Source: Undaria pinnatifida
Lineage: Eukaryota > Sar > Phaeophyceae > Laminariales > Alariaceae
Direction: 5' to 3'
DNA length: 64,000 nucleotides
NCBI GenBank assembly: GCA_012845835.1
Contig: JABAKD010000009.1
Span: forward strand, 3,944,904-4,008,903
Of this stretch, positions 2,356-53,396 are shown one piece after another. Numbering within the stretch: position 1 is the first letter of the stretch; every line of letters starts with the position of its first letter. The position numbers were made by a program, and so were the translations under genes. The notes beneath the pieces were generated by a model that had not been told where the DNA came from, searched no databases, and was given only the letters and a program-made list of their open reading frames with translations.

Positions 2356-4437
2356 GAAGGGGAGGTTGGTCGCCTAAACGAATATGAGGTTACCGCACAC
2401 GTGGTGCTAGCGGACGACCGTGTGGGCGGCAGGGGAGGGGAGGTCTAATAATAACTTGAACATATCGTATATGATTTGGAGTGGCTGCATTGATGGTTGG
2501 AAGTGTAGACAGTTTATATCACTTTTTGGGTAGAGGTTGTAACGCTGGTCGTTAATAACTTTCGTGGCCCGGGGGTAGAGGGAGGGGGGAAATGGGGTGC
2601 ATGAGGGGAATGCTATCAACACGGGGATGGGGGAGGTGGATACGATAAAATGATAATACCTTCATACTACACTCAGATGTTTAATGTGTAAAAAAATATC
2701 TTTGTACGTACTTACACGAAAATATAGTTTACGGATACAGGTAGTACGCCAATAAACACCGATGGGTGTAGTCGTAATAAACAACATATACCCGTGGTCA
2801 GGGTTGCTCTACAGCGTGCGGCATTGTGCTAGGGCACGCTTTTGTCACATGACCTATCGCGCAATACATCAGGAGTCAATGAGCGGCCTGCTGCAGCCCC
2901 GTTTTTTTTTGCTGCACCATTTTTCCGCTAGAGGGAAAACAACGCTGGCAACGCTCCCTTTTCGCAATGGACATTATTTTTGTTTCGCCGTACTCGTAGT
3001 CGAAAGGTTTTTCTATCCATATCACCGTAGGAGAGATATTTCTGGGTCTGTTTCGCCGTAGCCGAGTTCCTATTCATGGGGCCGTTTTCTCGTCGTCAAA
3101 GTTATGTTCATGTTGTTTTACGACGCAGGAGCGTTTGAACCGTTTAATTGCATGATGTGCCGTCTTCTTTATACCAGTTGTATTTCTCCAAGAACCGTGT
3201 TTGCCATTCATATGCCCGACGCTCGCCACGCTGACTCCAAAGTCCAATCAGTCAATATCGATTCAGGTAATGCACAGGCTTCAACTCCGGGTATTGGAGT
3301 TGAGTGCTTCGGGGGTGCAACAAACTGCTGGTACAGGTGCTTTAGAACACCGCGCAAAGCGTGTCGGTCTTGCTCTTGTTTTGACTCTGACGCCTGGAGT
3401 CTGCCCCCACGTACTCCTAATACAACTGCGCATCTCGCTCATTAATGTCTACCGGATAAAGACGCTTGGGTGCCATGATGCTTGCCCGGACCTAAGTTCT
3501 CGTCCACGACCATTTGACATTGGGGAAAGTTTGTGTTTCGTTTACCGTTATCCTCTATGTACATGCCTTTGTAACTGTTTTTCTTCCGCCAGTACCAGGT
3601 ATGTTCTAGCATTCCTCTACACAGAAAATGCCCGTATGCCAGCTTACATCCAGAGGGTAAACTGGACGAGTAAAACGAGAATTCTGGCAAATAATTGCGC
3701 TCTATTTACACGTATAGTATCCACATTTTGTACTCGTGCGTAGTGCAAGGCCGCTATACTGGCCGGAAGCGTAGGTATAACCTTAAAGGTGGTGCTGTTA
3801 CGTTTACCCGCGAGGTATATACTATGACATGAAAGCGCCAGGTAGTGTCTGTCGTTGTATTGTTACTGGCGATGGAACTCCCCATCCATCCCTGAACAGA
3901 AATTTCAAACGTAAAATGGGGAATAGAACTCCCTATCAACTTGTGTCCAACTGATTCATGTGCCGAAACAAAAACAATACCTGGTAATTGCAACCACAGC
4001 GGGACAGCACGTTGAAAAATGTCATCTCGACCTACAAACTACGAATTCACTCATACCGCGCTGCGTTGAAAACACAACTTGTCTTACGTACGACAATTGT
4101 AAGGTCTAACAAATTGTGGTCAGGGTCGCCACGACCTACGATCTACTTCGTGTAACGACCTTTCAACGAAAAGTTTTTGCAACAGCCGCATCTTGACCTA
4201 TGTATCTTACATCTAAGCACACACAGCGCGTTACGCGTGGAATTTTGCATGGACACCTACCGGAATCCAGACCTCTCACGGAATGTGTATTTCAGTATAA
4301 TCGACACCCGTAAACATGAGCATCGACCTCAGACCAACATCGCCTAAACACGGGCTCGGCGACAAAGTGCCACCTGTGGCTGCGTCAGCGCATATAGGCG
4401 CCCTACGCAGAAATTCCGAGACAGAAAGTCTACGAAA
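2356..4437. other. Region without recognisable gene
   Basis: No protein family or RNA is recognisable here. The interval 2400-2690 is unusually similar to copy 2 (29720-30005), about 95% by eye, against roughly 87% in neighbouring sequence. It holds a minus-strand open frame in both copies (2407-2622 and 29726-29968) rich in Pro and Leu. The base changes in that frame show no codon-position bias, so coding is not supported. Other open frames (2762-3743) are broken in copy 2. Copy 2 partner: about 29669-31740. Confidence 0.5.
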
Positions 4438-4464
4438 TCAGAACTCAGAACTCAGAACTCAGAA
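4438..4464. repeat. 7-bp microsatellite (TCAGAAC)n, copy 1
   Basis: The heptamer TCAGAAC stands in several tandem units here. The equivalent site in copy 2 (near 31738) has only one to two units. This is a copy-specific slippage expansion. No function is implied. Confidence 0.85.
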
Positions 4465-5817
4465 AAACTGAAAATATGTAGCTCAAAATCCCGGACGCCA
4501 ACAAACCACAACATGACCACAAACGCAAAACCTATCAGTTTATAGATCCGCGCTATATCGATCCGCCTTTAACCGCAACGATTTGAGCTTTTTCGCAGAA
4601 CGCCCTTTCGCGTGAAGGAACACGTCAGACACCTGCTCCCCGGTGCTCACCGCCTCCTCCCATCCTTCACACGTCAGCTCGACGGCCATCGTCGTCGTCA
4701 CCGCGAGGCGGTTGCTGCAGGACTGCACAGCATTCCACGGTAGGCGACCACGGTCTGATGGGCGCTTCACCCGCACTATACTTGCACCTCGTTGTAGCCA
4801 CACGATCATTTGCTCCTCGCGTGTGGGTGGGTCGATCTTAATCGCATGACGGAATATTTCATGTTGCTTGCGACAACCAATATCGCACAACATCTTTCAA
4901 TATTCCGGTGGGAAGCCATGGTCGACAGCGTCATAGATCAACGCCCCAAACATGCTCACACTATCCCCCGTCTCAACGCCGGGATCCCGTAAGGTCATCG
5001 ATCGTTAGCAGAGTCAGCGTTACGCCATCGTCCACCTCACCTGGCGCATCGACGCCAGGGCCGAACGTCGTGATAGCAATCGCCACCCACAGCTCAGCAC
5101 CAGCGTCGGGCTCACCCATAGCATAAGCTGGAATTTCCACCCCAACTCCACCTTGACGTGTACACGACTTCCGTGAAGATGCCTCTACCTGCGTAACGAC
5201 GTCGATGTCGCGTTCCTCTCCCAGAGGCCTCTACCTGATCATGAACACATCGTCTCTCTGAGCGAAGGTGATTCACAGCAACCGTTAACGATTTCAGTCC
5301 CTATATCACCCTTCTTGATCAACATGGTAACCACACGCGTTTGCCCACCAAACGCCTTTGATTTAACGCGGATTGCGTCATTGCGAGCAGAAACGGCACA
5401 TCCTCTACCCTTTCCTCCGGCATTGTTGTGATACCTCAACAAGACTCCATGGCACCTTGACCTCAGCAGCCGGAAACGTACCAGGATCCGTAAGACGCCC
5501 AAGAGAGATGCTGCGTCCAGGCCTCCAAGTGCGGTTCGTTCTCCATCAAATCTATACTTGGGTCACCAGATCCGGCAGGCTACACGACCGAGACAAGCGC
5601 ATGAGGAATAGTTTTGAAATCTCCACCCAACTGCTGCGTCGTGAATCCCCGTGGCTGCACCAGAACGAAATGAAGAACTGGCGCTGTATTCTGTGGCCAA
5701 AGACCGCTTTAAGTCCTGGTGCTTCACCATCTTGGTGAGCAGGTTATCCACCTACGCCTCTCTTTCCCGTGGCACGCACGAATGTGTAGGTAGTCGGAAT
5801 GCTCCGGCGAAGTCAAT

Positions 5818-6072
5818 TTAGGCGCACCAGTTTCGGTCTTCGTGGTAACCACCGCTGCAGAGGGCGGTGTTGTTCCCACTAGCTTTATTGGTGGCACATG
5901 CAGGGGTCATCCCGGTCATGTAGCTCTGGGCATGCTGAGTGGAGCCAGTTGTGGACTGTTGCGTCTTCTTGGCCGTCTGGCTTATATCACTGGATATGGA
6001 CGTCTTCTTGCCGTTTAGCCTTCTCGCGTTAGTGATAATCCCCCTCTGCTGTTGAACTTGCATGCCACACAC
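5818..6072. other. Open both-strand segment, glycine-rich hydrophobic frame, copy 1
   Basis: Two overlapping frames stay open in all three copies. The plus frame contains a Gly/Leu-rich stretch (GMLSGASCGLLRLLGRLAY here, GAGSGLLLLLGGLAY in copy 3) that would suit a membrane segment. The minus frame gives GMQVQ... through ...NTALCSGGY (84 codons here, 163 in copy 2, 79 in copy 3). Base differences between copies 1 and 2 show no codon-position bias in either frame, so I cannot say which, if either, was coding. The context, inside the minus-strand degenerate gene, slightly favours the minus strand. Confidence 0.3.
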
Positions 6073-6565
6073 AAAACACTATTTTTTTGACTAACAACTG
6101 TTCCGCTCTCTTCTTTCTCCTACAGCGGCTTTCGCACTCTCGAGTTAGACGTGCTGGCTAGCAACGATTTCCTGGGGCTACGTCATCGCAGCAGCCACTG
6201 ACCTAGCGCCAAAAGCTTTGCCGTTTGCAAGCGTACCGCATTGTAGGACTCAACAATAAATGGCTATTTTGTTGCTGCTCAGAAATTTTGCTGAACAGAG
6301 CGGCATGATCGGACGTTTCGAGATCGAATCGCATCTTCCTTTCCGCCTCAGGGGCGCAACGTAAGTGGCTCAGCTCAGCCTGTATCGCCCACCATCAGGC
6401 TTCCCCAGCTCCGTGGGCCCATTTTCAGCAAGGTATTCCCGCAAGGCGATGTTTTGAATCAGCACCCTCAAGTGTAAGGTAGACCGCTCCCATACATTGT
6501 TTTAGCACATGGAATACCTAGCGGGAAATTCCCGCGTCACACGTCAATTGAACATCAACGGCAGC

Positions 6566-6667
6566 AAACGGTTTAAGCGCCTTCGTTATTTCTTCCTCGG
6601 AGATGTCGGCCGTGGCCTTGTCATCGTAGACCTCATCAGCCACCACCACTTGCGTCTTCGACTCCAC
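6566..6667 (-). CDS. 34-codon block with third-position divergence, copy 1
   Basis: The minus-strand frame reads VESKTQVVVADEVYDDKATA followed by DISEEEITKALKPF. It is open in all three copies. Compared codon by codon with copy 2 (33891-33992) I count 18 base differences: 12 at third positions, 4 at first and 2 at second. Between copies 2 and 3 the three differences are all at third positions. Random decay would spread them evenly, so this piece was translated from the minus strand after the duplication. It is acidic, with no motif I recognise. It is immediately preceded by GGAAAGGTGAGA (copy 1), which could be a splice donor; the in-frame TGA there is shared by all copies, as expected if it is intronic. 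Confidence 0.6.
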
Positions 6668-7633
6668 GAGCTCTCACCTTTCCACCAGAACCTGGTTTCC
6701 CCCGTACTTGTATGAGATACGCACCTGCTGCTCGTACTCAATAGCAGGCAACAAGTAATTCACGCTTATCCCCGAAGGCAACAACACCACGAAACGACGT
6801 ATGTGGTCCATATCCCCCAATCGTTACACTGACCTCCGGAGTCAGCCGGCCCCGGGCTTGGCCTCCACCTCAGTGGTTAGCCCAACATTCAGAATGGACC
6901 CCGCCATCGCCCTACGGTCATGGTCCTCTTGCTGCTGTAGGGTCTCTTACCAAAATTGAATTGAATTGCATCGACTCGCGAGTGCGGGCTCGGTGGTGTC
7001 AATTCCGAGGACCTCTCCTCGTAGGCTTGGAGTGCGCTTGTCCACCATGACGAAGTTCGTCGGTTATCACATGAAGAAATGACATACTGTCGGCCATGGA
7101 CTTTCCCGTCCATCTCTCAAGAGTCACTAGGAACAGTAGTGTAAAATGGACATTCGTAACACATTTTATCCAATGCCACCTATGTGCGGCAAAATGTGTA
7201 ATGATGCGATCACCACGATACACAAACATTAGTTTTGGAAACCGGCCCCAGACTAGCATTCTTGCTGGCTATTGACCGACGAGATGTTGCCATGAGCGCT
7301 GATAAGTAGTGCAAAATCCACGTGTTTGCATGGGAATTGCATAGCGGCATTAATGAAATAGATTCGGCCTGAGTGTTCTCCCTATTATCCGATACGTGCA
7401 GATAGCAGCCTGTATTGTTCGCCAACAGGCAGTTTTACCATCATTGACAACCAATAAAGGTCCCCCAGGGGAGCAGGTTACAACGTGTCGGTTGCCCGCT
7501 CCAGTACTTGTGAGGTCGATTGGCATACATAGAAACATTGAGTAGTGTCAGCAGATGGAATGGTACAGGTTATCGGCATATGGCCGGTGTTTACGGCTGG
7601 CACATGCCCAAGTACCGTGTGGACACTACGGCA

Positions 7634-8086
7634 TTACGTAAACGAAAGCTCTCTCCGATTACGTCTAGCGCATATTCGACGTCCAAAAACATTTTCTCCA
7701 AGCAAACAATGTGCACAATCCTTCTGTCTTTTCTCGGAGTGACCAATGGGCGCATTGTCAAAACTTGTCTCATAAAAATGTGCTGGACCTAAAACACGGT
7801 CCTTATTATCATCTGGCGCTCGGACTTGACGCACCAAAATCCGTGCGTAGCGTTGATTTTTTACGTGATCGTGGTGGAAACCGTTTGACGTTGCTGCCGA
7901 ACCATACAATAATATTTCTTCCCGTGTGACGTTTGCCGGATCTCGGGCGGACGCCAAATGGTTCTTGATATCTGTACTACGAGTACCGGCGACGTTCGAC
8001 GATGTTCCAATGCGTGCTTCAGCCAAAACAACACACCCCACGTTTTATACAGAGTCATAACTGCTGTTTGGCGGCCGCGTTCTATT
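7634..8086 (-). pseudogene. Putative minus-strand exon, copy 1
   Basis: An open minus-strand frame of 135 codons (7634-8041) has partners in copies 2 and 3 with long shared strings such as ARIGTSSNVAGTRST and IDNAPIGHSEKRQKDCAHC. Within 107 bp around 7940-8045 I count only 4 differences from copy 2, fewer than in the surroundings. The exon would begin at 8086, after an AG acceptor. An alternative frame (7861-8190) is open as well, so the reading frame is uncertain, and copy 3 has a shift in the middle. I recognise no family. Confidence 0.42.
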
Positions 8087-8174
8087 CTGTGAAATACCAC
8101 CACCACAAAACACACTCGATACAAATATATTATGCTGTAATTTGGTTGTCGGGCATTGTAGTGTTCAAACTTAC
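8087..8174 (-). other. Predicted 88-bp intron, copy 1
   Basis: On the minus strand the sequence GCAG|GTAAGTTT at 8174 is a consensus donor. TTTCACAG at 8087 is a good acceptor, preceded by a G/T-rich tract. Copy 2 keeps both sites and exactly the same length (35335-35422), despite sequence changes inside. Copy 3 has lost the canonical donor (GTAGGTT). This supports a spliced minus-strand gene upstream of the 7634-8086 exon. Confidence 0.5.
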
Positions 8175-8354
8175 CTGCAACCATAGCCACTATGGATGGT
8201 GGCCCCAGAAGGCATTGGTTACGGGACGACGGCTGTGGTGGAGGCGGGCGCTCATATATTTTGGTTTAGAGCTTGCTAGAGCCCCTCACGCGAATACCTA
8301 TAACAATACCCGTATAAAAAGCAGTTTAGCGCCACACACACCCGTCTCACACTT

Positions 8355-8855
8355 TTATATGCTTCCATCACAAGGAATATATTGTGACTGGTTTTGACGG
8401 CCCAAACTCAGCGGTGAAATAGACAGTATATCCTGTATTATGATACCACTACAACCCATAGTTGCCAAGGTTGGTTGATGCATGTTTATCTCCAGAGATA
8501 AATAGGCATTCAACCACACTTGACAAAATCCGCAGGGGGTACGGTGGAATTCCCAAACGCACCTCGCAACTTCGTTTTTCCGCCGCCCGAAGCAGTTTTC
8601 TCGTCGTACATCAATATGTTCGACAGATATGCACAACAGGCCATCCCCCGCCCCAAACAACTGTAAACTTATATGCATTTGAAAACACCACTCTGAAACG
8701 ACACGATAACGAAGTTTAGAAGATCCCCCAGAGTATAAACGTGTAACAATAACCACGCGAACACAAAATAATACGTGTTCGAAAACTCCACTCGGAAACA
8801 ACACGATATGAAGTCTTGAACATAAGCCAAGAATGCCCTCACAATAAAACCACAT
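8355..8855 (-). other. 166-codon open frame over a 100-bp tandem repeat, copy 1
   Basis: A minus-strand frame is open here. Its right third is a 100-bp tandem duplication (8681-8780 and 8781-8880, each starting with GAAAAC). Part of the frame is kept in copy 2 (35612-35872, 35832-36050), including PRGFCQVWLNAYLS. There is a hydrophobic Val/Phe-rich part but no recognisable domain. Copy 3 has lost this interval by deletion. Whether it is coding is uncertain. Confidence 0.25.
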
Positions 8856-8880
8856 ACACGTCTACATACAACACTCCGTC
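8681..8880. repeat. 100-bp tandem duplication
   Basis: Two units begin with GAAAACWCCACTC at 8681 and 8781 and share a second block ending in CACGCGAACAC or the related CACATACACGTC. Copy 2 has the same pair (about 35929 and 36028). The duplication is therefore older than the split of the two unit copies. Confidence 0.7.
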
Positions 8881-22659: not shown

Positions 22660-23400
22660 AAAATTGTGGTTGATTGAAGTGTATTTGAATATTATTCGTG
22701 ACCTAAACCTCCTCAAAATCCCCCCCCCCCTCTTGCTCTCCCTTACTCAAACGCCCCACCAAATATCGAAATCCGCCACATCAATAAACACTTCACGCAC
22801 AAGATATCACCTCATTATCCTTCGAGAGCCATCTATGCCGTTGTGTTCCCCCCCCCCCCCCTCCCCCCCCCCCCCCCCCGCTCCAACGCCCCCTCTTTCC
22901 CGACCACCTACACGATCGCCTAGACCTAGCACCACGCGTATAACAAACTGCTACATATCATTGATCTCACAGCCGAAGTGTATTTGAATATTATTTGTAA
23001 CCTACAACTCCTAAAAATCCCCCCCCCCCCCCCCCCTCTTGCTTTCCCTTACTCAAACGCCCCACCAAATATCGAAATCCGCCACATTAATAAACACTTC
23101 ACGCACAGGATATCACCTCATTATATTTCGAGAGCCATCCATGCCGATGTGTTTCGCCCCCCCCCCCGCCTCGAACGCCCCCTTCTTCCCCATCACCCGC
23201 ACCTTCGCCTAGACCTAGCACCACACGTATAACAAACCCCTCACCTAAAGCCGTCCCCCCCCCCCCCCCCACCCGCCCCCACCCCTCCCCGCCCCCACCC
23301 CCCACCCTTCCCCCCCCCCCAACCCATCCCAACCCCACCCCCACGAACACTCCACCCTCTCTTTACTCACTGATTGTACGAATTAAATGTCACATTTATC
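22660..23400. repeat. Two 303-bp C-rich modules in tandem, copy 1
   Basis: A unit beginning GTGTATTTGAATATTATT and passing through a C run, ACTCAAACGCCCCACC, ATCACCTCATTAT and CGCCTAGACCTAGCACCAC occurs at about 22678 and again at 22979. A partial third arrangement and long C runs follow. The modules belong to the family of the array at 10500-11880. Confidence 0.75.
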
Positions 23401-23619
23401 CCCTCAAAATAATGTATAGCTTCCAGGCACATATTGAGCTACCCCCCCCAACCCCCCCGCCCCCAATAATATACTGGTGCCAAAACCGTCAGATTTATCC
23501 CCTCGAAAGAATTTATAGCTTACATGCACAAATTGCCCCTTCCCCCCCCCCCCCCCCCCCCCCCGCCCCCCTCCAAACCCGCTCGCTTTTGATCAAAACC
23601 AGGCCCCTCTTTCCCTTCA

Positions 23620-24133
23620 CAGCTGTCAGATTTTTGTCCCCCTCAGAAACGGGTTTTATAGTTTCCGCGCACAGACTGACTAAAATCATCCTGTTGACCC
23701 TGATAGCTACACTGTAGTTGTAAGGGGAGTCGCCGACCTATATCCTTAATGAGGACACACACCCCGTAATGCGCGCGATCGGAGTATCACACACAGCTTG
23801 CAAAGATGAGTTTCGACAAAATTATCGATCTCACAGCTGGAGTGTAATTTAATTTATTATATTATTATTCGATCTCACAGCTTTATTATATATATAATAA
23901 ATTAAATTACACTCCAGCTGTGAGATCGAAGATTTCGTCGAAACTCATCTTTGCAAGCTGTGTGTGATACTCCGATCGCGCGCATTACGGGTTGTGTGTC
24001 CTCATTAAGGATATAGGTCGGCGACTCCCCTTACAACTACAGTGTAGCTTTCAGGGTCAACAGGGTGATGTTAGGCAGTCTGTGCGCGGAAACTTTAAAA
24101 CCCGTTTCTGAGGGGGACAAAATCTGACAGCTG
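23620..24133. repeat. Large palindrome of C-rich module ends
   Basis: The left arm 23620-23860 is the reverse complement of 23894-24133 at about 95% identity, with a 33-bp spacer. The similarity continues outwards, after a gap of about 90 bp in the left arm, into the C-rich left side and G-rich right side. Two copies of the same repeat end are thus joined tail to tail. Such structures form hairpins and are prone to deletion. Confidence 0.88.
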
Positions 24134-24425
24134 TGGAAGGAAATGCATCAGTTTATCAAGTGAATCCTGTAGTAAGTCGAATAACCGGTGAGGGAAGGGC
24201 GGAGTTTTTAAGGACGTGGGGGCCTGATTTTGATCAAAAGGGGGGGCGGGAGGGGGGGAGTGGGGGGAGGGGGACGGGTGGGGCAGGTCTATTTGTGCGT
24301 GAAAACTATAAATAGTTCTTGTGGGGGAGGGGGAGGAATGTGGCGGGGGGGGGGGGGGGGCGGGGGGGGAGGGCTCTAGGTCGCATAGATGTAGAGGATT
24401 GCTATACGCGTGTGATCATGTGTTG
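24134..24425. repeat. G-rich inverted C-module
   Basis: This is the reverse-complement continuation of the module family, with G runs up to about 18. It matches 46930-47170 in copy 2. It ends where LINE sequence resumes. Confidence 0.75.
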
Positions 24426-24429
24426 ACCT

Positions 24430-25700
24430 GTCTGGTATTGAAACACTTGAAATATTGCAAAAACAGATTGAGGAGGCACTAGACTCCACGAGGAAATCGA
24501 GTGTGACAGCGAACGTGAAAAGATGCGCAGTAGTTGTATGTAACGAACGTCAGGTGAATCCGACACATTTCAAAAGGAGGTCTAGAGTATACGAAGTACG
24601 AGTAGACGTACCTTAGCGTAGAGATCTTGAAGGATTGCCCTTAGGAAACGGTATATCACAAGCAGTAGGCAAGATGGATGCGATCCTAACAGACCCGGAC
24701 GTCAACTCTAGGTTTGAAATATGCATTCTGTTGAATGTGATTGTATCAAAGTTTGAATGTGCGGGGGAAGTATGGCAAGCGAACACGAAGTGCGTGAAAA
24801 AACCGGGAACAGTGCAGATGTCACCAGCAAATTACGATGCTAGGATGCTCAAGTACGACGAGTATCATTATAGTATTAGGACACTACCAAGGTATGTACG
24901 AACTTTGAGAGGAAAATGTAGACGTGTGAATGTTCAAAAATTATTCTCAAGTACTAATCTAGGTATGGAATATGCCAGAAACGAGGCTTCTCGACATGGT
25001 TGATACGGCTGCATGGGAGCAAGTACTAAAACCGCAGGATCGAGTAAGGTGAGATAACGTAGTCAAGAGGATATGGAAGGATAAAGGAGGGAACTAAGAT
25101 GAAGTACTACGAACAGAGAAGTTTATCTGGTACACGACTGAATTACAAGTGAGAATAAACGAAAAGGAAGGCTGGCGCTAAGAGATACGGTGGAAGAAGA
25201 GAAGCACTGAGAGATATACGGGGGGTTGGAAGAAGATACTGTATTCGAAAGGGAAGGTATCGGCGCGGCCCAATCGACTACGCAAAAATGCTTAAACTGA
25301 GATTTCGTGTAGAGGACCTGGACCTACCTGAAAGAAGAACGAGATATTTCAGTAATCAGGAGGAGAACGCGCGCCTATAATTATGTGTCCGCGTGGCACA
25401 ACAATAGAGGGTAAAACTCACATGCTAAGGTGATTTGAAATATTCACTAACGGACGGGATACGTTAACCGGAGGCATGCGGAAATCATACGTATGTCACA
25501 TTACCGGTTTTCGCAGACTAGAGAAAAGCGAGGAAACGATCGCTATCCTACGATATAGATTCTGGGTGCAGACAGCGAAACAGAACAAGGATAGGAAAAG
25601 CAAACAGTGTACGTGTAGTTTACCAAAGAATCGCAATGAGTAAATAAATGTTGGAGGTGTCGCTCTAAGGAGTATGGGAAGAATGGGATGCGTGGTCAAT
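24430..25700 (+). mobile_element. LINE 3' part, copy 1
   Basis: The reading resumes just after the reverse transcriptase catalytic box with ETLEILQKQIEEALDSTRK and VTANVKRCAVVVCNERQVNP (about 24440-24560). It continues with VGKMDAILTDPDVNSRFEIC and FECAGEVWQANTKCVKKPGT (inside 24635-25003), LKLRFRVEDLDLPERRTRY (about 25295) and the end NVGGVALRSMGRMGCVVN (about 25650-25700). That end is the usual C-terminus of this family. Stops and frame changes show it is dead. Confidence 0.85.
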
Positions 25701-29668: not shown

Positions 29669-31829
29669 GAGGCTGAAGGGGAGGTTGGTCGCCTAAACGA
29701 ATATGAGGTTACCGCACACGTGGTTCTAGCAGACGACCGTGTGGGCGGCAGGGGAGGGGAGGTCTAATAATAACTTGAACATATCGTATATGATTTTGAG
29801 TGGCTGCATTGATGGTTGGAAGTGTAAACAATTTATACCACTTGTTGGGTAGAGGTTGTAACGCTGGTCGTTCATAACTTTCGTGGCCCGGGGGTAGAGG
29901 GAGGGGGGAAATGGGGGGCATGAGGGAAATGCTATCAACACGGGGATGGGGGGAGGTGGATACGACAAAATGATAATACCTTCATACTACACTCAGATGT
30001 TTAATTTATAAAAATATATATTTGTACGTACTCACACGAGAATATATTTTACGGATACAGGTAGTACGCCAATAAACACCGGTGGGTGTAGTCGTAATGA
30101 ACAAAATATACCCGTGGTCAGGGTTGCACTTACAGCGTGCGGCGTTGTGCTAGGGCACGCTTTTTGCACATTCCTTTTCGCGCAATATATCTGGAGTCAA
30201 TGAGCCGTCTGCTGCAGCCCCGTTTCTCTTTGCTGCACCTTTTTTCCGCCAGAGGGAAAACAACACTCGCAACGCTCCCTTTTCGCCACAGACTTTTTTT
30301 TGTCTCGCCGTACTCGTAGTCGAAAGGTTTTTTCGTCCATATCGCCGTGGGAGAGATATTTCTGGGTCCGTTTCGCCATAGCCGAGTTCATATTTGGGGC
30401 CGTTTTCTCATCGTCACAAATATGCTTTGGTTGTTTTACGACGCCGGAGCTTTTGAACCGTTCAATTGCATGATGTGACGTCTTTGTCATACCAGTTGTA
30501 TTTCTCCAAGAACCGTGTTTCATATATATATGCCCGACGCTCGCCACGCTGACTCCAAAGTCCAACCAGTCATTATCCATTGAGGTAGAGCACTGGCTCA
30601 AACTCCGCGTATTAAAGTTGAGTGCTACGGGGGCGCAACAAACTGCTGAGTACAGGTGTTGTAGAACACCGCCAAAAACGTGTCGGTCTTGCTCTTGTTT
30701 TGACTCTGACGCCTGGAGTTTGTCTCAACGTACTCTTTATGCAACTGCGCGTCTCTCATTTATGTCTACCGGATAAAGACGCTTGGGTGCCATGATGCTT
30801 GCCCGGACCAATGTTCTCGTCCACGACCATTTGACATTGGGTAAAGTTTGTGTTTCCTTTAATGTTGTCCTCTTTGTAGGTACCTTTGTGACTCTTTTAC
30901 TTCCCCCAGTATGATCTTGCGTTTCTCTACACAGGAAATGCCCGGATGCCAGCTTACATCCAGAGGGTGAACTGGACGAGTAAGACGAGCATTTTGGGAA
31001 AAATTGCGCTCTATTTACGCATATAGTAGCCGAATTTTGGGCTCATTCGTAGTACAAAGACGCAATACTGGCCGGAAGCGTAAGTATTACCTTAGTGGTG
31101 GTGCTGTTACGTTTACCTGTGAGGGATATACTAAGAAATGAAAGCGCCAGGTAGTGTCTGTCGTTGTAGGTTTACTGGCGATGGAACTCCCCATTCATTC
31201 CTAAACAGAAGCTTTAAACGCAAAATGGGAAATAGAACTCCCTATCAAATTGTATTCAACTGATTCATGTGCCGAAACAATGACAATAATTTCAACCACA
31301 GCGGGACAGCACGTTGAAAAATCCTATCTCGACCTACAAACTACGAATTCGCTCATACCGCGCTGCTTTGAAAACACAACTTGTCTTACGTACGACAATT
31401 ATAATGTCCAACAAGTTGTGGTCAGGTTCGCCACGACCTACGATCTACTTCGTGTACCGACCTTTCAACAATAAGTTTTTGCAGCAGCCGCATCTTAACC
31501 TATGTATATCACACCTAACCACACAAAGTTCGCTACGCGTTGGATTTTGCATGGACACCCACCGGAATCCAGACCTCTCACGAAATGTGTATTTCAGTAC
31601 AATCGACACCCGTAAACGTGAGCGTCAACCTCAGACCAACTCCGCCTAAACACGGGCTCGGCGACGAAGCGCCACCTGTGGCTGCGTCAGCGCATATAGG
31701 GGCCCTGCGCAGAAACTCCAAGACATAAAGTCTACGAAATCAGAACTCAGAAAAACTGAAAATATGTATCTCAAAATCCCGGACGCCCACAAACTACAAC
31801 ATGATCACAAACGCAAAACATATCGCTGT

Positions 31830-34250
31830 ATGGATCCGCGCTACTTCGATCGGCCTTCAACCACAACGCCTTCATCTCGTTCGCAGCACCCCTATTCGCG
31901 TAAAGGAACACGACAGACACCGGCTCCCAGGTGCTCACCGCCTCCTACAATTCTTCGCACGCCAGCTCGACCCCCATCGTCGCCGTCACAGGAAGACGGT
32001 CGCTGCAAGACTGCCGCATTCCACGGTAGGCGAGCACGGTCTGATAGGCGCTTGACCTGCACCACACATGCACCTCGTTGTAGGCACACGAGCATGTGCT
32101 CCAAGCGTGCGGGTGGGTCGTTCTGAATCGCATGACGGAATACTTCATGTTGCTTGCGACAAACAATGTCGCGCAACATCTCGCAACATTCCGCTGGGAA
32201 TCCATGGCCGACAGCGTCATAGATCAACGACTCAAACACGCCCACACGATCCCACGCCTCAACGCCGGGATCCCGTAAGGTCATCGGTGAGATAGCAGCG
32301 TCTGCGTGACGTCATCGTCCACCTCACATGGCGCATCGACGCCAGGGCCGAACGTCGTGATAGCAACCGCCACCCACAGCACAGCACCAGCGTGGGCTCA
32401 CCAATAGCATGGGCTGTAACGTCCACGCTAACTTCATCTTGACGTGTACACGACATCCGTGCAGATCCCTCGAGCTGCGTAACGACGTCGATGTCGCGTT
32501 TCTCTCCCAGAGGCCTGTACCTGATGATTACCCCATCGCCTCTCCGAGAGAAGGTGATTCACAGCGAGGTAAACCATTTCGGTCTCCATGGAGTATCGAT
32601 CGTGTCCTAGATTAGACACAATTCCGTCCCAACATCACCCTTCTTGATCAACGGCGTCACAACACGCGCTTGCCAAACAAACGCTTTTGTTTCAACGCGG
32701 ATTGCGTCATTGTGAGCTGTCACGGCACACCCTCTACTATTTCCTCCCATATTATCGTAATACCTCAACCAGACTCCATGTCACCTTGACCTCAGCAGCC
32801 GCGAAAGTACCAGGATCCGTAAGACGCCCACAGAATATGCTGCGTCCGGGCCTTCGAGTGCGTTTCGTTGTCCATCGAATCCAACCCTGCGTCACCAGAT
32901 CCGACAGTCTATACGACCGAGACACGCGCAGGAGAACTGGGTTTTAAATCTCCACACAAATGCTGCGACGCGGACCCCCGTGGCTGCACCGCGACGAAAT
33001 GAAGAACTGGTGCTGTATTCTGTGGCCAAGACCGTTTGAAAGCCTGGTGCTCCACCATGTTGGTGAGATAGATAACCAGCGACGCAATCCTCTCCCGTGT
33101 CACGCGCGCATGTACAGGTAGTCGGCATGCCGCCGCGTAGTTTCTGCAGGCGCCCCAGGTTCGGTCTTCGTAGTAACCACCGCTACAGAGGGGGGTGTTG
33201 TTTCCACTAGCTCTATTGGTGGCACATGCAGGGGTCATCCCGGTCATGTCGCTCTGGGCATGCTGAGTGGAGCCGTTAGTGGAGTCCTGCTCCTTCTTGG
33301 CGGTATGGCCTATTTCATTGGCCATGGACGCCTTGCTGCCGCTTATCATTCTCACGTTAGAGACAATTCCCCCCTGCTTTTGAACTTGCATGCCACTCAC
33401 AAAACACTCATTTACGACTACGATCTGTTCCGCTCTCTTCTTTCACGCCAGCGGGTTTCACACTCTCGCGTTAAGCGTGCTAGCTAGCAGATATTTCCTG
33501 TCGCTGCGTCATCGCAGCAGCCACTGACCTAGCGTCACAAAGCCTTGCCGTTTGCCGGCGTGCCGCATTTCTGGACTCAACAACAAGTTGGCCTTATTGC
33601 TGTTTGGCAATTATGCCGAACAGTGCAGCATGATCAGACCTTTCGAGATCAAATATAATCTTCCTTTCCGCCTTAAGGGCGCAACGTCAGTGGCTCAGTT
33701 CAGCCTGTATCGCCCACCATCAGGCTTTACCAGCTCCATGAGGCCGTTTTAAGCAAGGTATTCCCGCAGGGCAATGTTTTCAATCAGCTCCGCCAAGTGT
33801 AAGGTAGACCGCTCCGATCGACTGTTTTAGCACATGTAATACCTAGCGGGAATATCCCTCATCACACGTCACTTGAACATCAACGGCACCAAAGGGTTTA
33901 AGGGCTTTCGTAAGCTCCTCCCCTGAGATATCGATCGTAGCCTTGTCATCGTAAACCTCATCAGCCACCATCACTTGAGTCTCCGACTCTACGAGCTATC
34001 ACCTTCCCGCCAGCACCTGGTTTCCCCCATATTCGTATGTGTTACGCATCTGCTGCTCGTACTCCGGAGCAGGCAACAGGCAATCTACGCGTATCCAGAA
34101 GGCAACAACACTACCAAACGACGTATGTGGTCTATATCCCCCAATCGTTACATTGACCTCCGGAGTCAGCCGGCCCCCGGCTTGACCTCCAACTGTGTGG
34201 TTACCCTAACCTTCAGAATGGACCTCGCCATCGCCCTACGGTCATGGTCC
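31830..34250 (-). pseudogene. Degenerate minus-strand coding region, copy 2
   Basis: This is the paralogue of 4540-6960. Its best preserved pieces are RDPGVEAWDRVGVFESLIYD and CRKQHEVFRHAIQNDPPAR (31892-32284), a 163-codon minus-strand open frame (32909-33400) and the 34-codon constrained block (33891-33992). The pieces lie in different frames, with stops between them. The order and spacing match copy 1 with small indels. The product is unknown. Confidence 0.5.
33891..33992 (-). CDS. 34-codon constrained block, copy 2
   Basis: This is the copy 2 equivalent of the block at 6566-6667. It reads VESETQVMVADEVYDDKATI followed by DISGEELTKALKPF on the minus strand with no stop. The flanking frames are broken, so the whole gene is not intact. 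Most differences from copy 1 are at third codon positions. Confidence 0.57.
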
Positions 34251-34418
34251 TCTTGCTGCTGTAGGGTCTTTTACAAAATTTAAATGAATTGCATCCACTC
34301 GCGAGTGCGGGATCAGTGGTGTCAATTCCGAGGACCTCTCCTCGTAGGCTCAAAGTGCGTTTGTCCACCATGCCCAGGTTAATCGGTTATCACATGGGGA
34401 AATGCCATACTATCAGCC

Positions 34419-35012
34419 ATGGACTTTCCCGTCCATCTCTCAAGAGTCACTAGGAACAGTAGTGTAAAATGGACATTCGCAACACATTTTATCCAATGCC
34501 ACCTATGTGCGGCAAAATGTGTAATGATGCGATTACCACGATACACGAACACTAGTTTTGGAGGCCGGCGCCAGACTAGCATTCGTTCTGGTTTTGACCG
34601 ACGAGATGTTGATATGAACGCATATAAGTTGTGCGAAATCCATATGTTTGCATGGGAATTGTTCGGTTCACTAACATGCAGTTTACCATCATTGATAACC
34701 AGTAAAGGTCCCCCAGGGGAGCAGGATACAACGTGTCGGTTGCACGCTCCAGTACTTGTGAGGTCGATTGGCATATATGGAAACACCGAGCAGTGTCATC
34801 AGATTGAACAGTACAGGTTATCGGCATATGGCCGGTGTTTACGGGTGGCACATGCCCAAGTATCGAGCGGACACTACGGCACTACGTTAATGACAGCTCT
34901 CTCCGATTACTTCAAGCGCATAATCCACGTCCTACAAAAATTTCTCCACGCAAACAATGTGCACAATCCTTCTGTCTTTTCTCGGAGTGACCAATGGGCG
35001 CATTGTCAATAA
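34419..35012 (+). other. Longest open frame (197 codons), probably non-coding
   Basis: This is the longest open frame in the window. On the opposite strand an open frame of 135 codons (34379-34786) is also present. Its parts (HFAAHRWHWIKCV, SPGGPLLVINDGK) recur in copy 1 (6999-7259 and 7350-7538). In copies 1 and 3 the plus frame is broken. Since both strands are open, the length alone is weak evidence. If anything here coded for protein, the minus strand is favoured, because it joins the neighbouring minus-strand exon. Confidence 0.25.
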
Positions 35013-41870: not shown

Positions 41871-42432
41871 TGAAACAAAGCGATTGAGAAAGTGTATTGG
41901 TAGATGCCGTTCCTACTATAACATGCGTCCCGGCTGCTATAGGCTGTAGGCTAACCTACCGTATGACCTTTTGAGTATTCTCACTGGAGGATCTGGGTAC
42001 CTCTCGCCCACGGCATGAAGTGGTTGGTTTTGACACGTGTTGATAACGAAATCCGATGAACAAACCCATGCCTTAGGCATGCAGCGAGCGTTTTGTGGTT
42101 TGCTCTGGCTGTTTACGTACTAATTCATGAGAGGGCCACAAACATAGTCTATGAAACAAAGCGATTGAGAAAGTGTATTGGTAGATGCCGTTCCTACTAT
42201 AACATGCGTCCCGGCTGCTACAGGCTGTAGGCTAACCTACCGTATGACCTTTTGAGTATTCTCACTGGAGGATCTGGGTACCTCTCGCCCACGGCATGAA
42301 GTGGTTGGTTTTGACACGTGTTGATAACGAAATCCGATGAACAAACCCATGCCTTAGGCATGCAGCGAGCGTTTTGTGGTTTGCTCTGGCTGTTTACGTA
42401 CTAATTCATGAGAGGGCCACAAACATAGTCTA
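41871..42432. repeat. 281-bp tandem duplication, copy 2 only
   Basis: Units 41871-42151 and 42152-42432 differ at a single base that I can find. Copies 1 and 3 have one unit. The duplication is far younger than the array itself. Confidence 0.95.
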
Positions 42433-44372
42433 TAGCAGAAGAAAAAAAATTCCCGATCGTGAATGTATCTTCTATCTCCGGAGCACCCATATGCAGTTGC
42501 ATCCTTCAATTGCCTTGGAGTACAAAGAACGTCTACAGATGAGGGAGGAGAGCTTTCTAAGTGACCCCGGATCGGAGACACTGCTCGGAGGGTGGGAGCG
42601 CGAGAGTAGTGCCAGGAACATGAAGTAGATCGGATAAAGAAGAACAAAACAAGTAGGAGATTCTCCAATCACCAACAGGGGTCGTGACGTGGTTCGGGTA
42701 AAGTCTACCACTTTCTTTCGTATGTGGGAAGAAAAGGCGGTAGATGCAAACAAATTTTGAGACAGAGGGAAAAATCGCCAGGGATGGTTCAGTGATATGT
42801 CCCAACCCGCGGGTCGGGTCGCAGTTTTCTTTCAATTTCACAGGTCGAGAGCGCGTGCTACGAACGATCGAGGTCGCAGTTTGTCGCTAGTACGTGGATA
42901 CCAGGAATTGTCTTCTGAATGATGAGGCTCCATAACACTCAACTCATTACCGTCGGAATCTTGCTCTTGTTTTGAGAAGGGTTTTGTGGTATAACCTGGG
43001 CCATACGATCGATCATCGGATACCATAATAATGAGAGTACCCCCCCCCCCTGTAGCGCTAGGATATTGCGTGGGTAAAATGACGGCCCGGGTCGTTTACT
43101 AGGATAACGGAGTGGTATATTAAACAGGATACCAAGCCTTTGGTCCCCCCGGGCGATACGACAAAAACGCAAAAATTACACACCTCTTATATATGTATTG
43201 AAAACAAAAAAATAGGACCCCTCCCATCAAGAAAAAAATGACCCATATACAGTATATTACAAGTAACAACAACGCAGATTACAAATATAAGGGTTGACCA
43301 GACATTTGTCGAACTCGCGGCTAGCGTCCTTGGAAAAAAGAAGAATCAAAAACCAAAACCAACATGCACCCCAATGAAAAATACGATGTCGTAGACATAC
43401 ACCAATGAATATCGCAAAATGAGTATTTTCCGACCATAGTGTGTTGTAGGGACGTTACGGAGGCCTGTTATTTCGAACACAGATGTTGCAGCAGGCGTCA
43501 AAGGTATGGTTGGGTCCTGCCTTAGAGTCAAGGATTAGGCTTCTGAAATGGAGAGAGGACAAAATGTGTGTGACGACTACGTGCTTGACTGCATGATTAG
43601 CCATGTACCCCCGAAATTTGAGCCAACACGACGGGCAATGAGGTGGGGCATGGCTGGATGAGGCACGAGCATGACCCACGCACGACTCAGATATGCATGG
43701 CTTCAAACTCTGGCATTTAATGAAGGGCGAACAAACGATACCAACGCGGTGAAGAGAGGGTAAACGATATCAACGCGGTCAAACCCGGGGACAGACAAAC
43801 ATAGCGTGTGAATCCAATTCAGTGCATAATTCAAATCCGCAGGGTTTGGGTCGGGCTTCCAATTGAGAAAAAGCGAAAAAGGAGTACATCGCGCTGTTCA
43901 TTGCACGACTAATATTCCCGCGCGTACAAACGAAGTTACACGGAGAGGTAGACACAGTCACAGATCATCTGTCAGGCCGGTTGTCAATGCGCGGGACACC
44001 TAAGAATCGTTGATCGTGCTGCAAACCTCTTTATGTGTCGACATTTGGGATGAGTTCTATATTAGTAAGGGATGCACGATGGAGGTAGCAGTTTTGCTCT
44101 ATGACGTACTCATGACTGAGGAGGGTCTTCCATAAATATTAGAATTGCTTTTGGCGAAGGCTCTAAATCTATGCCACATTTGATTCGTGGCAAGCATTGC
44201 ACTTTGGGCTTCTTAACCTTTGAAAAAACCGGACTGATTGACCCGGCGGTAGTACTTGCTTTGGTCAGAATCCCCCGTTGACCACGTGTTGCTTAGCCCA
44301 ACCGTGCGTCGACCATTATCGTGTCGAACACACTGAAGAACGAAGTTGTCTTCAGATGCCCAGTTTAACTGC

Positions 44373-50105: not shown

Positions 50106-51521
50106 TCTTGACGTGTACGCGACTTCTGTGCTGAAGCCTTGAGTTGCGTAACGACATCGGTGTCGCGTTTCTCTCCCAGAGACCTCTACCTGACGATTAC
50201 CACATCGCCTTTTCGAGAGGTGATTCACAGCAGGGTAAACCATTTCAGTCCCCATGGAGTATCGATTGTGTCCTAGATTAAACACAATCCCGTCTCAATA
50301 CCACCCTTCTTGATCAACAGCGTCACCACACGCGCTTGCCCAACAAACGCCTATGTTTTAACGCGGATTGCGTCATTGTGAGCTGTCACGGCACACCCTT
50401 TACTCTTCCTTCCGCCATTGTTGTAATACCTCGACAAGACTCCATGGTCCCTTGACCTAAGCAGACGCGAAAGTACCAGGATCCGTAACACGCCCACGGG
50501 AGATGCTGCGTCCGGGCCTTCGAGTGCGTTTCGTTGTCCATCGAATCCAACCCTGCGTCACCAGATCCGACGGGCTACACAACCGAGACACGCGCAGGAG
50601 AACTGGTTTTTAAATCTTCACACAACTGCTGCGACGTGGACCCCTGTGGCTGCACCGCGACGAAATGAGGAACTGGTGCTGTATTCTGTGGCGAAGACCG
50701 TTTGAAAGCCTGGTGCGGCACCATGTTGGTGAGACAGTTAACCAGCGACGCAAGTCTCTCCCGTGTCACGAGAATGTACAGGTAGTCGGCATGCTCCCGC
50801 GAAGTTTGTTCAGGCGCACCATGTTCAGTCTTCGTGGTAACCACCGCTGCAGAGGGCGGTGTTGTTTCCAATAGCTCTATTGGTGGCACATGCAAGGGTC
50901 ATCTCGGTAATGTAGCTCTGGGCATGCTGAGTGGAGCCGGTAGTGGACTGCTGCTTCTTCTTGGCGGTCTGGCCTATAGCGCTGGCCATGGACGCCTTCC
51001 TGCCGCTTACCCTCGTCACGTTAGTTTCAATTCCCCCCTGCTTTTGAACTTGCATGCCACACACAAAACACTAATTTGCGACTACTAACTGTTCCGCTCT
51101 CCTTTTTCACGCCAGCGGCTTTCACACTCTCGCGATAAGCGTGCTAGCTAGCAGCAATTTCCTGGGGCTGCGTCATCGCAGCAGCCACTGACCTAGCGTC
51201 ACAACGCTTTGCCGTTTACAGGTATGCCGCATGGTTGGACTAAACAACAAATTGGCCTTATTGCTGCTTGGCAATTATGCTGAACTGTGCGGCATTATCA
51301 GACGTTTCGGGATCAAATCGCATCTTACTTTCCGCCTTAGGGGCACAACGTCAGTGGCTTAATTCAACCTTTAAGGCCCACCATCAGGCTTCACCAGCGT
51401 CATGAGCCATTTTTCAGCAAGGTATTCCCGCAGGGCAATGTTTTGAATCAGAACCGTCAAGTGTAAGGTAGACCGCTCGCATCCATTGTTTAAGCACATG
51501 GAATACATAGCGGGAAAATCC

Positions 51522-51681
51522 CTCATCACACGTTAATTGAACATCACCGGCAGCATACGGTTTAAGCGCTTTTGTTAGCTCCTTCTCCTCGTAGATATCG
51601 ACTCATCACACGTCACTTGAACATCAACGGCACCAAACGGTTTAAGGGCTTTCGTAAGCTCCTCCCCTGAGATATCGATCG
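51522..51681. repeat. 80-bp tandem duplication of two sequence variants, copy 3
   Basis: Units 51522-51601 and 51602-51681 align, but the second is almost identical to copy 2 (33858 onward). The first shares several variants with copy 1, for example AATTG, GGCAGCA and AAGCGC. This is the footprint expected from unequal exchange between two unit types. Confidence 0.75.
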
Positions 51682-51736
51682 TAGCTTTGTCATCGTAAAC
51701 CTCATCAGCCACCATCACTTGAGTCTCCGAGTCTAC
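51635..51736 (-). CDS. 34-codon constrained block, copy 3
   Basis: This is the copy 3 equivalent, open on the minus strand and reading VDSETQVMVADEVYDDKATI followed by DISGEELTKALKPF. It differs from copy 2 at three bases, all third codon positions. It lies partly in the second unit of the 80-bp two-variant duplication, which explains its closeness to copy 2. Confidence 0.57.
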
Positions 51737-53396
51737 GAGCTCTCACCTTCCCTCCAGCACCTGGTCTCCTCCATATTCGTACGTGATACGCATCTGCTGC
51801 TCGAACTGCGGAGGAGGCAACAAGTAATCCACGCTTATTCCCGAAGGCAACAACACCACCAAACAAAGTAGGTGGTCTATCTCCCCCAATCGTTACATTG
51901 ACTTCCGGAGTCAGCCGGCCCCCGGCATGGCCTCCACCTCTGTGGTAACCGCAACCTTCAGAATGGACCCCGCCTTCGCCCTGCGGTTATGCTCCACTTG
52001 CTGCTGTAGGTTCTCTTACCAAATTGAATTGAATTGCATCGACTCGCGAGTGCGGGCTTAGTGGTGTCAATTGCGAGGACCTCTCCTCGTGGGCTCGGAG
52101 TGCGTTTGTCCACCATGGCAAAGTTAATCGGTTATCACATGGGTAAATGCCATCCTATCGGCCATGGATTTTCCCGTCCATCTCTAAAGAGTCACTAGAA
52201 ACAGTAAGGGAAAATGGACACCCGTAACACATTTTATCCAATCCCTGCTATGAGCGGCAAAATGTGTAATGATGCGATCACCACGATACACAAACATTAG
52301 TTTTGGAGGCCGGCGCCAGACTAGCATTAATGCTGGCTATTGACCGACAAGATGTTGCCGTGAGTGCTGATAAGTAGTGCGAACTCCACGTGATTGCATG
52401 GGTATTGTTCGGTTCGCTAACATGCAGTTTTACCATCATTGATAACCAGTTAAGGTCCCCCTGTGGAGCAGGTTACAACGTGTCGGTTGCCCGCTCCAGT
52501 GCTTGTGAGGTCAATAATCGTACATGGAAACATCAAGTAGTATCAGCAGTCTGAGTCGTACAGGTTACCGGCGTAGGGCCGGTGTTTACAGCTGGCACAT
52601 GCCGAACTACCGAGTGGACACTACGGCACTACGTTCATGACAGCTTTCTCCAATAATCTCTAGCGCAAAATTTACGCCCTATAATATTCTTCCATGCAAA
52701 CAATGTGCACAACCATTCTGTCTTTTCTCGGTGTGTCCAATAGGCGCAATGTCAATACGTGCCGCAATAGAATGTGTTGGACCTAAAACACGGTTCTCAT
52801 TAACCTCTGGCGCTCAGACGTGACGCACCAAAATCCGTGCGTCGCCTATTTCTTGAACGCAATCGTGGTGGAAACCGTTGGACGTGTTGCTGCCGAACCA
52901 TACCCCAACATTTCTTTTCGTGTGACGTTTGCCAGATCTCGGGCGGACGTCGAATAGTTCTCGATATCTGTACTACGAGTACCGGCGACGTTCGACGATG
53001 TTCCAATGCGTGCTTCAGGCAAAAAACACGCCACACCTTTTTACGGCCTCATAACTGCCGTTTGGCGGCCACGTTCTATTCTGATAACAATCCCACAACC
53101 ACAAAATACACTATATACAAATATATTGTGCTGCGATTTGGTGGTCAGGCATTATCATTGTAATATTTAAACCTACCCACAACCCTAGCAACTATCGATG
53201 GCTGTGGTAGGTGTAGGCGCTCTTATATTATAGCTTGGAGCTTGCCAGATCCCGTCACGCAAGTAACCGCAACGATACCCCGTATGAGAAGCAGCTTGGC
53301 GACACACACACCCGTCTCACACTTTTATAGGCTGCTACCACAACGTATTTTTTGTGACTGTTTTTAACGGCCCAAACTCAGCGGTGAAAATGATAG

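Follow-up and report, generated by a model that had tools for sequence, protein, structure and literature searches.

Terminal repeats with Gag domain (TR-GAGs) are non-autonomous LTR retrotransposons known from plants. The rule that delimits them, as quoted in PMC6022998, asks for LTRs together with a GAG domain, with or without an AP domain, and allows no pol domain beyond these. Within the brown algae, a second source (PMC12477816) reports gag-only LTR families in Ectocarpus. The locus described here lies in a 64-kb stretch of the Undaria pinnatifida genome (the window; positions 3944904–4008903 of the contig labelled C61), and the genome searched was a 511 Mb assembly of 68 contigs. One locus of this assembly matches a fucoxanthin-chlorophyll protein (FCP17 of 9ygv, 324.5 bits), as fits a fucoxanthin-bearing alga. 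A first-pass annotation had singled out 34 codons of the minus strand in this window, at 6566–6667, as the footprint of a protein of unknown family, encoded by a gene that was still active after the surrounding large repeat units had separated. The piece is very probably the remnant of a gag gene, derived from a non-autonomous LTR retrotransposon that was multiplied with the repeat unit and has drifted neutrally since.

A probable gag-protease element in a large repeat unit

The minus-strand frame of the piece aligns in frame with gag ORFs on other contigs (loci L020, L010 and L021), and in L020 the homologue of the piece shares a single 469-aa ORF with a CCHC box. The zinc knuckle (Pfam zf-CCHC) is above cut-off in L010, with 24.2 bits versus 20.8, and the downstream gag-asp_proteas match has its best E value, 1.9e-5, in L021, where its 25.6 bits are below the cut-off of 28.2. 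Pfam gave no match to a capsid model, and no Pfam family was assigned to the piece or to the N-terminal part of gag; the piece is called gag because of its position ahead of the zinc knuckle in one ORF. Reverse transcriptase, RNase H and integrase were not found by Pfam in the stop-free pieces of the element that were scanned, which cover less than every interior base. Direct repeats of 126–294 bp, spaced 3.34–3.42 kb apart, are present in nine of 15 loci, the clearest copies start with TGTACC and finish with GGTACA, and a perfect 4-bp target duplication is found in three of eight dispersed copies. As read from its sequence, the element is an LTR retrotransposon of about 3.6 kb composed of an LTR, gag with a zinc knuckle, a predicted aspartic protease and a second LTR, with no pol domain found. 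The strand and frame proposed earlier are supported by the alignment to gag ORFs elsewhere in the genome, which marks the minus frame of the piece as what is evidently a genuine former coding frame; the family is recognizable, in place of the unknown one proposed, from the LTRs, the zinc knuckle and the predicted aspartic protease. With one element as query, at least 51 match rows on at least 23 contigs were obtained, the best 37 of 805 first-look candidates having been scored. Beside the dispersed element in L020, the translations of 470–1063 and 3384–3794 suggest, by their motifs, a putative tubulin-tyrosine-ligase-like gene, and in L021 a Copia-type gag (8039–8869; Retrotran_gag_2, E 1.3e-12) adjoins the element and is not inside it.

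The window contains three copies of the element, all on the minus strand and delimited by blastn with the L020 and L010 elements. Copy 1 (3922–7222) retains a 5' LTR remnant at about 6946–7222, remnants of gag and protease, and a cut 3' LTR remnant at its low end; copy 2 spans 31177–34545, and copy 3, which is truncated within the protease part, 50106–52290. In copy 1 the codon map places the gag-pro reference frame, codons 31 to 835, at 4572–6920 on the minus strand, and the piece is a gag fragment corresponding to reference codons 114–147, as seen from the position counts and from the alignment with gag of the dispersed elements. Relatives along C61 amount to at least 60 rows, the best 40 of 421 candidates having been scored. 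Matching unit sequence borders the element on both sides in L009 (on contig C30), L024 and L034, and in L022 the unit match extends beyond about 40 bp on one side only; the element was therefore carried along by duplication of the unit. The large repeat units are unevenly spaced in the window, at about 27 and 14–18 kb, and unit sequence also has matches on contigs C30, C32 and C22. A recent 281-bp tandem duplication (41871–42433, about 99–100% identical) is present only in copy 2 of the unit. Elsewhere in the window, a C-rich, strongly skewed stretch at 23001–25000, with a GC skew of -0.49 and then +0.35, includes an inverted repeat of 231 nt (arms 23632–23862 and 23892–24122, 96% complementary, 29-nt gap). 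Of the 11 listed ORFs in the window that reach 150 aa, 10 were compared with Pfam, and the sole match has an E value of 0.094; neither Rfam, at gathering scores, nor ARAGORN reported anything in the 64 kb.

The frame is heavily decayed. With phases taken from the real ORFs of two dispersed copies, L020 and L016, and gapped codons dropped pairwise, the gag-pro frame contains 20, 19 and 17 in-frame stops in window copies 1, 2 and 3, and gag contains 14, 11 and 11 frame-breaking indels relative to L020 (in copy 1, 14 of 16 gag indels break the frame). Codon 111 is TGA in 11 copies on C61, namely the three window copies and 8 others. At codon 483 a stop is found in every one of the 26 unit-borne copies in which the codon is present (L022, L009 and the 24 C61 copies counted), and in none of the 10 dispersed copies with an intact codon; L021 is gapped there, and L012, L023 and L039 lack it. 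L009 on C30 and L022 have stops at codons 298 and 483 in common with most or all of the C61 copies. By this distribution the stops common to the unit copies would predate the separation of the units; with the common TGA at codon 111 and the common stop at codon 483, the frame was not open through that separation.

Position counts in the piece and over the full frame

The piece occupies 6566–6667, 33891–33992 and 51635–51736 in copies 1, 2 and 3, respectively, as 34 codons of the minus frame. An exact recount of first-, second- and third-position differences gave 4/2/12 between copies 1 and 2, 4/2/13 between copies 1 and 3, and 0/0/3 between copies 2 and 3, which reproduces the figures of the first-pass annotation (12 third-, 4 first- and 2 second-position changes for the first pair, and three differences, all at third positions, for the last). 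The frame, said to be open in all three copies, is indeed free of stops within the 34 codons in each. An in-frame TGA common to the three copies is found three codons upstream (6674–6676, 33999–34001 and 51743–51745), and copies 1 and 2 have in common an in-frame TAG downstream (6518–6520 and 33843–33845). The resulting stop-to-stop stretch on the minus strand of copy 1, 6518–6676 in the codon map, has no ATG between the two stops. Copy 3 contains an 80-bp tandem duplication (51522–51678, from repeat detection, with its effect on the frame checked), and because this duplication crosses the piece, the frame of copy 3 breaks soon after it.

Over the full frame the third-position excess disappears. 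First-, second- and third-position differences in gag-pro are 127/111/126 over 779 codons for copies 1 and 2, 70/70/71 over 602 codons for copies 2 and 3, and 94/85/101 over 587 codons for copies 1 and 3. Pooled pairs, which are not independent, give 44153/39400/41240 for 24 C61 copies and 5284/4927/6753 for 12 dispersed copies, the latter showing constraint. The raw NG86 omega of gag is 0.72 (0.51–1.00) for copies 1 and 2, 0.61 (0.42–0.89) for copies 1 and 3, and 1.08 (0.73–1.77) for copies 2 and 3. A neutral reshuffle that preserves base, change type and CpG context gave corresponding null values of 0.82, 0.78 and 0.94 (P 0.24, 0.07 and 0.80), and for pro P values of 0.55, 0.37 and 0.72 for the same pairs; none of these six tests, three for gag and three for pro, places omega of the window copies outside the neutral reshuffle, the lowest P being 0.072. 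The first-pass annotation had named dN/dS over a larger alignment as the check on its reading, with neutrality as the refuting outcome, and over that alignment the ratio is indistinguishable from neutral. Later activity of the gene is therefore not supported by that annotation's own test, and a gene active after duplication was rejected on the flat position counts, the neutral omega and the common stops, which would be older than the separation. CpG decay as a source of third-position bias is not needed, there being no full-frame bias; CpG observed/expected is 0.96–1.14 in the loci examined.

The piece itself is locally unusual. The differences between copies 1 and 2 were shuffled to see how often a gap-free stretch of 34 codons would have 12 or more differences in one codon class, making up two thirds or more of its total. 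Of 200 shuffles each, 10.5% produced one in the 3.3-kb element and 15.5% in 7.1 kb of sequence; the observed 7.1 kb has such a stretch only at the piece. Within-codon permutation, a stricter test, was run for 2000 rounds on a tree of 36 copies that leaves out L012 and also L036, which contributes to the pair counts. L022 and L009 were treated separately as deep branches, and the array copies do not include L023 and L039, two short sequences that were aligned. On the window branches the piece has 5/3/17 changes, a family-wise probability of 0.008 for the third class and 0.030 for any class. On all array branches it has 42/42/65 versus a baseline of 54.0/48.8/51.4 (family-wise 0.248 for the third class and 0.581 for any; P 0.0035 when the piece is taken by itself). 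For the array copies outside the window, inner branches have 13/12/28 in the piece (P 0.0015; family-wise 0.051 and 0.150, respectively). The dispersed copies have no third-position excess in the piece (17/14/10). Third-position maxima occur elsewhere too, for instance at codon 340 on the outside array branches. These mixed permutation results are the strongest evidence against a reading by pure chance.

Drift, a retained peptide or separate insertions

The excess on window and inner array branches, and the low number of indel events (2 versus a mean of 4.57 in the 34 codons; 3 versus 6.87 in 51 codons), would fit a gag-derived peptide of at most 51 codons between the two stops, which selection kept in the tandem array for a time and later let go. 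We consider such a peptide very improbable. Array copies outside the window show no excess on their terminal branches (24/27/20, P 0.88) or on all their branches together (37/39/48, P 0.12). On the window branches the rise at third positions (17 versus a baseline of 7.4) exceeds the fall at first and second positions (8 versus 14.1), whereas selection would produce the reverse. The 51-codon stretch shows no shortage of private stops (6 versus 5.55 expected), and the lack of an ATG in copy 1 and the duplication in copy 3 also speak against a maintained product. Outside the window the excess is seen on inner array branches and is missing from terminal ones, which could instead mean that separate insertions of an element then active gave rise to the array copies, the constraint dating from transposition and not from after duplication. 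This too is most unlikely, given that the element is flanked by unit sequence on both sides in three loci (on one side in L022), the stops at codons 298 and 483 common to C30, L022 and C61 copies, and the inner array branches, which over whole gag have 278/226/294 and over whole pro 295/265/254.

On the reading as a drifting gag relict, the element, by analogy with its class, would have copied through RNA, with gag forming the particle and an autonomous relative providing the polymerase. One old insertion into the ancestor of the large repeat unit would have been followed by the gain of stops, of which the common ones are seen directly and their order is deduced; duplication of whole units would then have multiplied the copy, mostly on C61, and neutral drift would have acted since. 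The third-position excess over 34 codons would be a local peak of this drift, selected by eye. The main points against this reading are the window-branch permutation and the excess on inner array branches; further ones are the few indels in the piece, the raw gag omega of copies 1 and 3, although its reshuffle null is itself 0.78 (P 0.07), and the missing Pfam assignment of the piece and the N-terminal part of gag. A short third-position footprint chosen by eye offers little evidence for a live gene, and a false lead is thereby removed. The fossil element is also a marker of the large repeat unit on C61 and C30, whose duplications can be ordered by common and private stops.

Comparison with described elements

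In Ectocarpus, Copia-N1_Ec32 and Copia-11_Ec32 are gag-only Copia families; the present element differs from them in its protease-like domain. It also differs from TR-GAGs in that these are described in plants, whereas the present element is algal and its window copies are dead; the likeness drawn to them is one of domain make-up. That likeness includes the LTRs, a putative GAG domain with a predicted AP, and the absence of any other pol domain from the pieces scanned, and by the rule as quoted in PMC6022998 the element would belong to a known kind, the TR-GAGs.
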